The notes under the pieces were generated by a model. The model was not told where the DNA came from. It saw nothing but the letters and a program-made list of their open reading frames with translations, and made no database searches. This document shows positions 16,999 to 19,367 of a stretch of 58,870 nucleotides of DNA, piece after piece. Made by a program: the position numbers and the translations under genes. Location: NCBI GenBank assembly GCA_023667765.1, contig JAMOZS010000002.1, positions 1-58,870 on the forward strand. The letters run 5' to 3'. Position 1 is the first letter of the stretch; every line of letters begins with the position of its first letter. The DNA comes from Roseburia sp. GTDB lineage: Bacteria; Bacillota; Clostridia; Lachnospirales; Lachnospiraceae.

Positions 16999-17028
16999 AA
17001 AAAATTGCAGGGCAATCTCAATTGCCCC
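16999..17028 (-). terminator. Rho-independent terminator after leuA
   Basis: The minus strand forms GGGCAAT-TGAG-ATTGCCC followed by TGCAATTTTTT, about 105 nt past the leuA stop. It separates leuA from the foldase gene. Confidence 0.75.
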
Positions 17029-17130
17029 GAGCCGCAAAAACAGCATTCCCCTGTCAGCCAGATTTTTGCAGATTTACGCCCACATGGGAAACTGCCAAAA
17101 CGATACCGACAAGGGAATCTTATTATCTTG

Positions 17131-19131
17131 CTATACCTGCTTCTTATATTGCATAGGGGTCATGCCGCTGGCTTTTTTGAATAATCTGTTAAAATGCTCC
17201 ACATTCTCATAGCCCACATTCGCAGCCACCGTCTCCACTGTCTGAGAAGTCTCCCTTAACAGATTCATGGCTTTCTTCATCCGCTCCTCCTTCACTATCT
17301 CCTGGAAGGTCATGCCTACCTTTTCCTTAATATATTTGGAAAGATAGGGCTTGGAAAGATGAAAGTGGTCGGCAAGGCTTTCCAAAGTCACTTCTACATA
17401 ATTTTGCTGTATGTAGCTGATAATGTCTACAATACGCTCCTCACGGCCCTTTGTAATATGCTGCTCTGCAGTAAGCTTGTTGGCCGCAGATACCAGCGCC
17501 GCGATAGAAGCCTTGATGATATCCTCATCCACGCCTACGCCCCAGTAGAATTTTCCGTCATGCATAATACCCACATAAGCAGCCGCCCGGGAAGCAGAAC
17601 CCTTGGAAATAGCATGCTCCTCGTATACGGAAAGCTCATAGGTTATGCCGAAATAGGTTTTGATGGTATTGCTTACCGCATCCAATCGCCCGTTGCCAGC
17701 GGTATGAATCACTCTTTTCTCCCCCGGCTGCTCAATTGTTACCTCCGCCTGAATACCGTTATGCTGCTTAAAATGACATTCGGGAATCTGGAATACTCCT
17801 CTGGGCAAAATATAATTTTCCTCAAAAATATCGTAAATCTCCTTGGGAAGCAGCTCCTGGTGCCTTCTGTCGGACACTCCTTTAATCAGATATCCTACCT
17901 CCTCCTTCATAGCCGCCGGCAATGCAAATCCAAACTGCTGCTTTAATACAAAGGCAACGCCACCCTTGCCGGATACGCTATTGATACGAATGACGTCGGA
18001 CTCATATTCCCTTCCCACATCGGCAGGGTCTATGGGCAGATACGGCACATCCCAGCGATTACCGCTCTTTCCCTCCTTCAGCCAGTTCATGCCCTTGCTG
18101 ATGGCATCCTGATGGGAACCGGAAAAGGCAGTAAACACCAGGTCTCCCGCATAAGGCGTTCTCTCATGTACCTTCATACCGGTATAGTTCTCATAAGCAT
18201 TTCTGATATCCATAATATGAGAAAAATCCAAACCGCTGTCCACTCCATGACAGGCCATGTTCATTGCCAGTGTCACAATATCCACATTTCCGGTGCGCTC
18301 TCCGTTGCCGAACAGCGTGCCTTCCACTCTGTCAGCCCCTGCCAGAATGCCGAACTCCGCATCACTGATGCCGCACCCTCTGTCATTATGAGGGTGTACG
18401 CTGAGCACTACATTTTCACGATACGCCAGATTCTTATGCATATACTCTACCTGACAGGCAAACACATGGGGCATGGCTACCTGTACTGTGGTGGGCAGAT
18501 TGATAATCGCTTTATGCGCCGCATCCGGTTTCCAGACCTCCAGCACCGCATTGCAGACCTCCAGCGCATAGTCTACCTCCGTCTGGGAAAAGCTCTCGGG
18601 ACTATACTCAAAGGTAAAGTTACCCTCTGTTTCATCCGCCAGTTTCTTTAACAGCTTTGCACCGTCCACGGCAATTTTCTTAATCTCTTCCTTATCCTTT
18701 TTAAACACCTGCTGCCGCTGTTCTACGGAGGTGGAATTATACAGATGCACCACCGCATGGGGAGCCCCCTTTACAGCCTCAAAGGTTTTCTTAATAATAT
18801 GCTCCCTGGCCTGGGTAAGCACCTGTATCGTCACATCCTCAGGAATCATATTCCGCTCAATCAAGGCCCGGATAAAATTATACTCCGTATCGGAGGAAGC
18901 CGGAAAGCCTACCTCTATCTCCTTGAAGCCAATTTTCACTAATATTTCAAAAAATGCCAGCTTATTCTCCAAGCTCATAGGGTCTACCAGAGCCTGATTG
19001 CCATCCCTCAAATCCACGCTGCACCACACAGGCGCCTTTGTAATGCTATCCTGCTTCACCCAGTCATAGGTCACTGTCGGAGGCATAAAATAAGTTTTTC
19101 CATATTTTTCGCTAACATTTACCTTGCTCAT
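17131..19131 (-). CDS. leuA: 2-isopropylmalate synthase fused to an AraC-type DNA-binding domain
   Basis: First committed enzyme of leucine synthesis (acetyl-CoA plus 2-ketoisovalerate to 2-isopropylmalate) carrying a C-terminal regulator module; 666 aa against about 560 for the enzyme alone. The catalytic barrel has DLRDGNQ (40-46), HPHND (246-250, metal ligands) and GNGERTGN (275-282), followed by a LeuA dimer/regulatory domain (about 450-556). Residues about 560-666 are an AraC/XylS double helix-turn-helix: HITKGREERIVDIISYIQQNY, LESLADHFHLSKPYLSKYIKEKVG, and VETVAANVGYENVEHFNRLFKKASGMTPMQYKK. Both halves are in one frame with no stop. No T-box or leader peptide is seen upstream. The fusion suggests a leucine-responsive enzyme-regulator, which is inference. 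Confidence 0.93.
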   Translation of the reverse strand: MSKVNVSEKYGKTYFMPPTVTYDWVKQDSITKAPVWCSVDLRDGNQALVDPMSLENKLAFFEILVKIGFKEIEVGFPASSDTEYNFIRALIERNMIPEDVTIQVLTQAREHIIKKTFEAVKGAPHAVVHLYNSTSVEQRQQVFKKDKEEIKKIAVDGAKLLKKLADETEGNFTFEYSPESFSQTEVDYALEVCNAVLEVWKPDAAHKAIINLPTTVQVAMPHVFACQVEYMHKNLAYRENVVLSVHPHNDRGCGISDAEFGILAGADRVEGTLFGNGERTGNVDIVTLAMNMACHGVDSGLDFSHIMDIRNAYENYTGMKVHERTPYAGDLVFTAFSGSHQDAISKGMNWLKEGKSGNRWDVPYLPIDPADVGREYESDVIRINSVSGKGGVAFVLKQQFGFALPAAMKEEVGYLIKGVSDRRHQELLPKEIYDIFEENYILPRGVFQIPECHFKQHNGIQAEVTIEQPGEKRVIHTAGNGRLDAVSNTIKTYFGITYELSVYEEHAISKGSASRAAAYVGIMHDGKFYWGVGVDEDIIKASIAALVSAANKLTAEQHITKGREERIVDIISYIQQNYVEVTLESLADHFHLSKPYLSKYIKEKVGMTFQEIVKEERMKKAMNLLRETSQTVETVAANVGYENVEHFNRLFKKASGMTPMQYKKQV

Positions 19132-19184: not shown

Positions 19185-19213
19185 ATGTTATCATATAAAT
19201 TATTTAGTTACAA
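19185..19213 (-). promoter_or_regulatory. Candidate leuA promoter in AT-rich leader
   Basis: On the minus strand TTGTAA (19208-19213) and TAACAT (19185-19190) are 17 bp apart, about 55 nt before the start codon. On the plus strand GTTACA occurs twice, near 19180 and 19207, a spacing that could suit a direct-repeat operator for an AraC-type protein, but this is not specific enough to call. The surrounding 19132-19367 is very AT-rich, with no T-box, attenuator hairpin or gene. Confidence 0.4.
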
Positions 19214-19367
19214 GGATTAAATTTAATTATTTAATTGATGTATTTTATGATGTATTATTTCTTAATATGCTTTAAATGCTGATTTTACTATGAGTTTTTT
19301 AATATACGCTGATATAAATCTAATTATAATATTGATTTATTTTGTTTTTAAATATTTCATTTATTTT

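Follow-up and report, generated by a model that had tools for sequence, protein, structure and literature searches.

We analyzed a stretch of 58,870 nucleotides from a Roseburia sp. contig (JAMOZS010000002.1; the window, taken at its full length), in which leuA, the gene for 2-isopropylmalate synthase (IPMS), runs on in one frame into an AraC-type double helix-turn-helix (HTH) domain. We think it quite likely that the encoded protein, here called LeuA-AraC, is an autogenous enzyme-regulator acting through a promoter element of the type found at 19210-19249, in front of its own gene. Comparison of related loci (numbered L; genomes are numbered G) established the fusion and how old it is, the integrity of the active site, the conservation of the HTH, and the element together with its layout and its association with the fusion; from the same comparison we infer that the HTH binds the element. 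The original prediction, made from the window's letters, had described a single frame with both parts and had proposed a combined enzyme and feedback regulator. The single frame was borne out, with 666 codons, no internal stop and Pfam domains over their gathering scores, and the element had been overlooked.

These Pfam domains were HMGL-like (residues 35-311), IPMS_D2 (330-397), LeuA_dimer (427-553; 89.2 bits, cut-off 24.9) and HTH_18 (586-665; 78.9 bits, cut-off 33.6), and HTH_AraC reached 54.6 bits (cut-off 26.6). The protein scored above the cut-off of NCBIfam NF002991 (787.3 vs 455) and under that of the equivalog TIGR00970 (657.1 vs 697.4). The best solved-structure match of the LeuA part was M. 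tuberculosis IPMS (1sr9, 3fig), which is of the same long type and has the same allosteric domain but no DNA-binding domain; solved relatives of the HTH part include 6swi, 3oou and 2k9s. The GNGRLDA core of the regulatory domain is conserved, and by its domains LeuA-AraC carries a leucine-binding regulatory domain, leucine binding itself being predicted. Residues R42, D43, H246, H248, N276 and Y364, which we take to have catalytic or metal-binding roles and the last of which matches Y410 of the M. tuberculosis enzyme, were invariant in 70 of 70 fused and in 67 unfused rows. By this comparison the active site is intact, so that enzyme activity is predicted. Mean residue conservation over the 70 fused rows was 0.74 in the HTH and 0.45 in the linker, and distant fused loci (L038 on, members of the same clade left out) shared 52-67% identity with the window protein in the HTH and 11-37% in the linker. 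The variable linker, together with the several losses of the domain that the tree suggests, would suit an HTH that is a structural or degenerate appendage with no DNA-binding function. This is very improbable, however, since the HTH positions are conserved across the 70 rows (within residues 560-666, 20 positions reach 95% or more) and an operator-like element co-occurs with them.

The fusion is widespread within the family. Among 80 related loci from the genome_contigs set, whose record titles mostly named Lachnospiraceae and its genera, 61 were fused in one frame and 16 unfused; three with broken or odd frames (L074, L086, L087) were set aside before the counts and the tree. In 299 genomes sampled across 298 genera of the family, roughly one per genus, a LeuA match at E≤1e-100 was present in 270, and at least 68 of these, the window's genome included, carried the full-length fusion; a fused leuA cut by a contig end (G163) stands outside this count. 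The recurrence of one frame in 61 of 80 relatives and in 68 family genomes ruled out a frameshift or stop between the two parts. The window does come from a 101-contig assembly, but the same frame also stands in a record titled as a complete genome (AP018536, L009), and an assembly or frameshift artefact is improbable in the extreme. The spread of the architecture, which the original prediction had suggested surveying, was, among the matches listed, almost confined to the family: every fused gene in an order sample (295 genomes, listed down to E 1e-220) lay within it, and the matches listed for a phylum sample (398 genomes, down to E 1e-190) contained a single fused gene beyond it (G575, L417), with a protein 69% identical to that of the window and 77% to that of a family member. 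This gene may reflect transfer or mis-binning, and a fused leuA on a 1.2-Mb contig titled Muribaculaceae (L045) may reflect transfer or a wrong label.

A tree built on LeuA residues 8-553, with the HTH excluded, placed all 70 fused rows inside one set of 80 rows, in which 10 unfused rows were nested (SH-aLRT 86, quick method). The fusion state needs 10 changes on this tree, or 8 with two split genes set aside; the change count cannot separate gain from loss, and the simplest reading is a single gain followed by several losses. Judged by this comparison, the fusion is old and conserved in a large branch of Lachnospiraceae. A special leucine-lid motif was considered as a mark of the fusion and was dropped, since the nested unfused rows mostly keep it. 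The window's genus also holds a second LeuA type, about 50% identical (L435 in G878, L436 in G955, L438 in G893), which stands alone in G878 and G955 and beside the first type in G893.

The promoter element was obtained by expectation maximisation on 400-bp leaders, seeded by the window's own leader, which yielded an element of 44 bp. Its top 40-bp match in the window scored 39.7 bits, with a runner-up at 11.6, and a profile search of the window's genome returned the leuA site as the only strong one (E 1.7e-5, next 0.31). The element is a direct repeat of TTAAAATAAATCA-like half-sites that lie 22-23 bp apart (self-match 0.555 at lag 22 and 0.483 at lag 23, 0.347 when shuffled), and its second half-site abuts the putative -35 hexamer. 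A direct repeat at the -35 is the geometry of a class-II activator site, the -35 here being read from the sequence. A simple promoter scan did not list this leuA promoter, whose hexamers match the sigma-70 consensus at only 4+4 of 12 positions; across 47 fused leaders, the consensus shows TT in the -35, followed 17 bp further on by TGnTAnnAT. When 167 pairs of fused loci no more than 72% identical in LeuA were compared, the element was 67% identical, its flanks 28-32% and the -10 region 43%; the first value is partly so by construction, because the loci were preselected at >15 bits, whereas that of the -10 region is free of this selection.

The element goes with the fusion. It was present in 57 of 62 fused leaders of the genome_contigs set (window included) and in none of 16 unfused ones, the best of which scored -1.5 bits, and 56 of the 57 scores exceeded all of 1240 shuffles (maximum 16.9). 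At >15 bits over the first 40 positions, the one-per-genus sample gave 56/68 fused and 1/59 unfused leaders, the unfused sample being the best 60 of 81 listed rows and thus not representing more distant unfused LeuA; two loci with short leaders (L148, 47 bp; L239, 56 bp) were excluded from these counts. The single unfused positive is a split gene with an HTH frame just behind leuA. Without the window and four rows shared with the matrix building, the counts were 51/63 and 1/59. A matrix made from window-like loci only (36 of 38 used) found the element at >10 bits in 40 of 61 fused leaders of other clades and 1 of 59 unfused leaders, and at >15 bits in 26/61 and 0/59, respectively. Scored with the full matrix, one of 1340 first-order resampled leaders passed 15 bits.

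We then compared the element with the T-box. T-box leaders are described for branched-chain biosynthesis genes in Clostridia in the available text of PMC2494555, and they control this same gene in sister lineages. The T-box is an RNA that reads tRNA charging, whereas LeuA-AraC is a protein that could read free leucine at the transcription start. In a search for the T-box core motif within 600 bp of leuA, with Rfam at gathering thresholds as a second test, the motif was found in 51 of 59 unfused leaders vs 11 of 68 fused ones. Rfam supported 10 of the 11 fused cases (L197 was the exception), and a T-box-like match at -676 in G022, which had no Rfam support, was left uncounted. Among the leaders of the genome_contigs set that were examined, Rfam gave a T-box in 6 of 13 unfused and 1 of 13 fused, and the core motif found one in 10 of those 13 unfused leaders; Rfam is thus the stricter test, and the unfused motif counts are partly Rfam-confirmed. 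For the window, the original prediction of a leader without a T-box held, since Rfam at gathering thresholds returned two tRNAs only and no T-box or other leader RNA over its whole length. The 68 fused leaders comprised 48 with the element only, 8 with element and T-box, 3 with the T-box only and 9 with neither. Where both occurred, the element lay 285-350 bp upstream of the T-box core, so that initiation would be the step controlled by the protein and attenuation the one controlled by the T-box. Most likely, the fusion and its element have largely replaced the T-box, in most lineages. With the catalytic residues, the element and the T-box counts taken together, the part of the original prediction that made LeuA-AraC an enzyme and a regulator at once is very probable.

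The nested unfused rows provide natural variants. In two genomes scored as unfused (G061, L215/L220; G078, L224), an HTH frame lies right behind the leuA stop in another frame; both retain the element (34.5 bits in G061, 12.2 bits in G078), and no T-box motif was found in either. These two separate lineages may represent true splits, sequencing errors or programmed frameshifts. A run of A was observed shortly ahead of the leuA stop in G078. The element was absent from all eight other nested unfused rows, six of which have a T-box core motif, five of them Rfam-positive (L063, L221, L225, L227, L232); in the remaining two (G190, G084), neither element nor T-box was found. Separately, a Clostridiales-1 RNA (RF01699) lies between the T-box and the unfused leuA at L227 2251-2414 (G073) and L232 2348-2506 (G256).

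The same co-occurrence could arise if the element belonged to another regulator sharing the phylogenetic range of the fusion, with the HTH acting at other sites or being inactive. Both the fusion and the element are bound to a clade, independent contrasts between them are few, and at least 10 further AraC-type HTH matches were counted in the window's own genome. We nevertheless regard another regulator as improbable, since the eight nested rows with no HTH are without the element while the two with an HTH frame behind leuA keep it, the direct-repeat layout fits AraC-type proteins, and the HTH is conserved across genera. Moreover, at the only leuA of the congeneric genomes G878 and G955, which is of the other type, neither the element nor a T-box motif was found.

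M. tuberculosis LeuA is described in the available text of PMC11057210 as a dimer with leucine bound at the regulatory-domain interface. The LeuA part of the fusion would likewise make 2-isopropylmalate as a dimer, with leucine at the interface of the regulatory domains, and the dimer would present two AraC-type DNA-binding domains on flexible linkers. The two half-sites fit LeuA-AraC because such a dimer would carry two HTH units, and these would occupy the two direct half-sites that end on the leuA -35 (window 19249 to 19210). At low leucine, bound LeuA-AraC would switch on leuA transcription in the manner of AraC-type class-II activators. Once leucine occupied the dimer domain, catalysis would be inhibited, and activation would cease or give way to repression; the domain order makes it reasonably probable that leucine gates the regulation. 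As to its sign, we lean towards LeuA-AraC being a class-II activator of its own gene, because of the site's position at the -35, the weakness of that hexamer in most leaders and the extended -10.

The same protein and site might instead serve repression, the dimer covering the -35 and blocking leuA when leucine is bound. The element does abut the -35, and the trifunctional PutA, which represses its own regulon according to the available text of PMC5293562, offers a precedent. In addition, some lineages have an inverted half-site beyond the -10, 78-93 bp from where the element starts, which scores 10 bits or more in 8 of 55 loci vs 0.5% of shuffles; its carriers include L156, L157, L170 and L188, and it is a possible negative operator. 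However, a poor -35 (TT alone in the consensus) combined with an extended -10 in the 47 profiled leaders suits an activator-dependent promoter, and AraC-type activators usually sit on direct repeats that reach the -35 from the upstream side. We thus consider repression unlikely, though it is the main alternative and less unlikely than the involvement of another regulator.

Further upstream, the window carries a second, distal copy of the element. Its strong half-site is the window's second-best (17.6 bits), and an independent repeat search recovered a 44-nt direct repeat with 97-nt spacing and 75% identity that covers the main and the distal copy. Several genomes of the window-like clade have an extra forward half-site 65, 76, 87, 97, 108, 110, 130/132 or 166 bp upstream; in the window's species group, five of these distances (65, 76, 87, 97 and 108 bp) increase in steps of roughly 11 bp, near one turn of the helix, which suggests helical phasing. 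The distinct loci of all clades numbered 107, and 15 of them held 17 distal half-sites, every one forward and none reverse. AraC loops DNA with helical phasing. The phases of the distal sites were concentrated with R 0.80 at a period of 11 bp and 0.44 at 10.5 bp; with related loci, a scanned period and only a moderate fit at 10.5 bp, looping is a lead. Tentatively, one leucine-binding event may stop both the committed enzyme and the transcription of its own gene, with sensing moved from tRNA charging to free leucine and, in the window's species group, with the enzyme holding the DNA in an AraC-like loop.

The profile search beyond leuA (E≤0.1) covered 69 fusion genomes (G163 included) and 68 unfused genomes. 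Of the non-leuA matches, 51 of 53 were examined in the fused genomes (G122:C92 and G246:C76, the latter at a contig end, were excluded) and 20 of 25 in the unfused ones. Branched-chain amino acid genes followed the site in 9/51 and 0/20 cases, respectively, and in 6 of the 12 strongest matches (E≤0.018) in fused genomes. The extra sites lie ahead of ilvBN (G191), ilvNC (G042, G009), leuCD (G207, G216), a leuDC-like paralogue (G156), leuB-ilvD (G156) and livKH-like genes (G156, G137), the Liv-like pair being named from matches under curated cut-offs. Of the nine sites, two are oriented away from the gene, and both of these belong to G156. The remaining matches at E≤0.018 were near a PALP-family gene (G282), an SBF transporter and folD (G191), an SDR gene (G116) and a MarR-type gene (G156), and two had no clear gene nearby (G176, G218). 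Strong element-like sites were seen at L213 2458-2497 (G282), before the PALP-family gene, which was read as trpB; at L206 3051-3090 (G191), near the SBF transporter and folD; and at L208 2924-2963 (G116), before the SDR gene.

Several observations weigh against the autogenous enzyme-regulator. Twelve of the 68 fused leaders have no element at >15 bits (7 have a candidate of 6-13 bits and 5 nothing above 4), and 9 of these 12 are also without a T-box. Supported branches yield only 3 independent contrasts and the best tree 8, too few for the association of fusion with element or T-box to reach significance; over the three, the element changes with the fusion in an average of 2.7 and in none against it, and the T-box goes opposite to the fusion in 1.3 and the same way in 0.1. 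The AraC-like geometry is also compatible with repression. The count of branched-chain genes covers a panel of nine proteins, which was chosen after the best matches had been seen, and the weaker matches alone (E 0.018-0.1) gave 3/40 in fused vs 0/20 in unfused genomes. Finally, a check of 30 fused genomes, in which the leuC leader was found in 25 and the ilvC leader in all 30, gave no site above 15 bits in the leuC leaders (one of 10.3 at -1336), and only 1/30 above 15 bits and 2/30 above 10 in the ilvC leaders; 0/24 unfused leuC leaders had a site above 10 bits, and half-site scans added little. A general branched-chain regulon was thus rejected, and leuA would be the main target, with other genes sporadic. 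General control of ilv/leu promoters, an idea behind one of the checks suggested in the original prediction, is weakly supported; in the window's own genome leuA has the only strong site.

Around leuA, the same-strand genes upstream encode an Hpt-domain protein and a response regulator with an HD domain, the gene downstream has a sub-threshold SurA-like match, and leuC and ilvC lie on a different contig (C33). The gene may be transcribed alone. The features of the locus are collected in Table 1.

Table 1. Features of the leuA-AraC locus in window coordinates
Feature	Position	Strand	Basis or remark
leuA-AraC fusion gene, 666 aa	17131..19131	minus	ATG start, no internal stop
LeuA part, residues 1-553: catalytic barrel, IPMS_D2, leucine-binding LeuA_dimer (predicted)	17473..19131	minus	Pfam/NCBIfam and invariant residues
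Variable linker, residues ~554-572 (~19 residues)	17416..17472	minus	low identity and low conservation
AraC/XylS-type double HTH, residues ~573-666	17134..17415	minus	HTH_18 and solved relatives
Promoter element, two direct half-sites 19234-19247 and ~19214-19227	19210..19249	minus	proposed site of two HTH units
Putative promoter: -35 TTGTAA 19213-19208, 17-bp spacer, extended -10 TGATAACAT ending 19185	19185..19213	minus	read from sequence
Second, distal element copy, 8.1 bits, strong half-site 19331-19344	19307..19346	minus	97 bp upstream of main half-site
Terminator-like hairpin after leuA	17008..17029	minus	weak: 3 in region vs 2.0 expected from shuffles

To our knowledge, enzymes that regulate their own gene via a fused DNA-binding domain are few, and no published report of a LeuA fused to an AraC-type HTH was found in a literature search that most subscription journals lay beyond. 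BirA and NadR combine enzyme and DNA-binding parts in one chain, with the pathway product or a derivative setting DNA binding; they differ from LeuA-AraC in their folds, in their N-terminal HTH and in controlling biotin or NAD genes and not the enzyme's own gene. AraC, RhaS and XylS have a C-terminal double HTH and bind as dimers to direct repeats about 21 bp apart that touch the -35. Their sensor is a non-catalytic ligand domain, whereas that of LeuA-AraC would be a whole enzyme, on a repeat of 22-23 bp. PutA (RHH + PRODH + P5CDH) is, in the available text of PMC5293562, an enzyme of metabolism whose fused DNA-binding domain lets it control its own regulon. LeuA-AraC would share this layout and differ in being biosynthetic and end-product-inhibited, with a C-terminal AraC-type domain; a Pfam scan of the protein found no PRODH, P5CDH or RHH domain. 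By analogy, it would act in the way PutA does, through a different enzyme and a different DNA-binding fold, and it is no member of the PutA family.

In LeuA-AraC, a textbook example of an allosteric biosynthetic enzyme would be coupled to an activator domain of the AraC type, in a fusion that spans dozens of genera of one gut-bacterial family, and its predicted operator is directly testable. The matching NCBIfam models say simply 2-isopropylmalate synthase, and models of leucine control in these bacteria could therefore miss the fusion. Moreover, the family holds a natural series, from fused genes with the element, through fused genes with element and T-box and genes with the HTH frame split off, to genes in which the HTH is gone and a T-box is present, and this series suits the study of how an RNA-based amino-acid sensor may be exchanged for a protein-based one.
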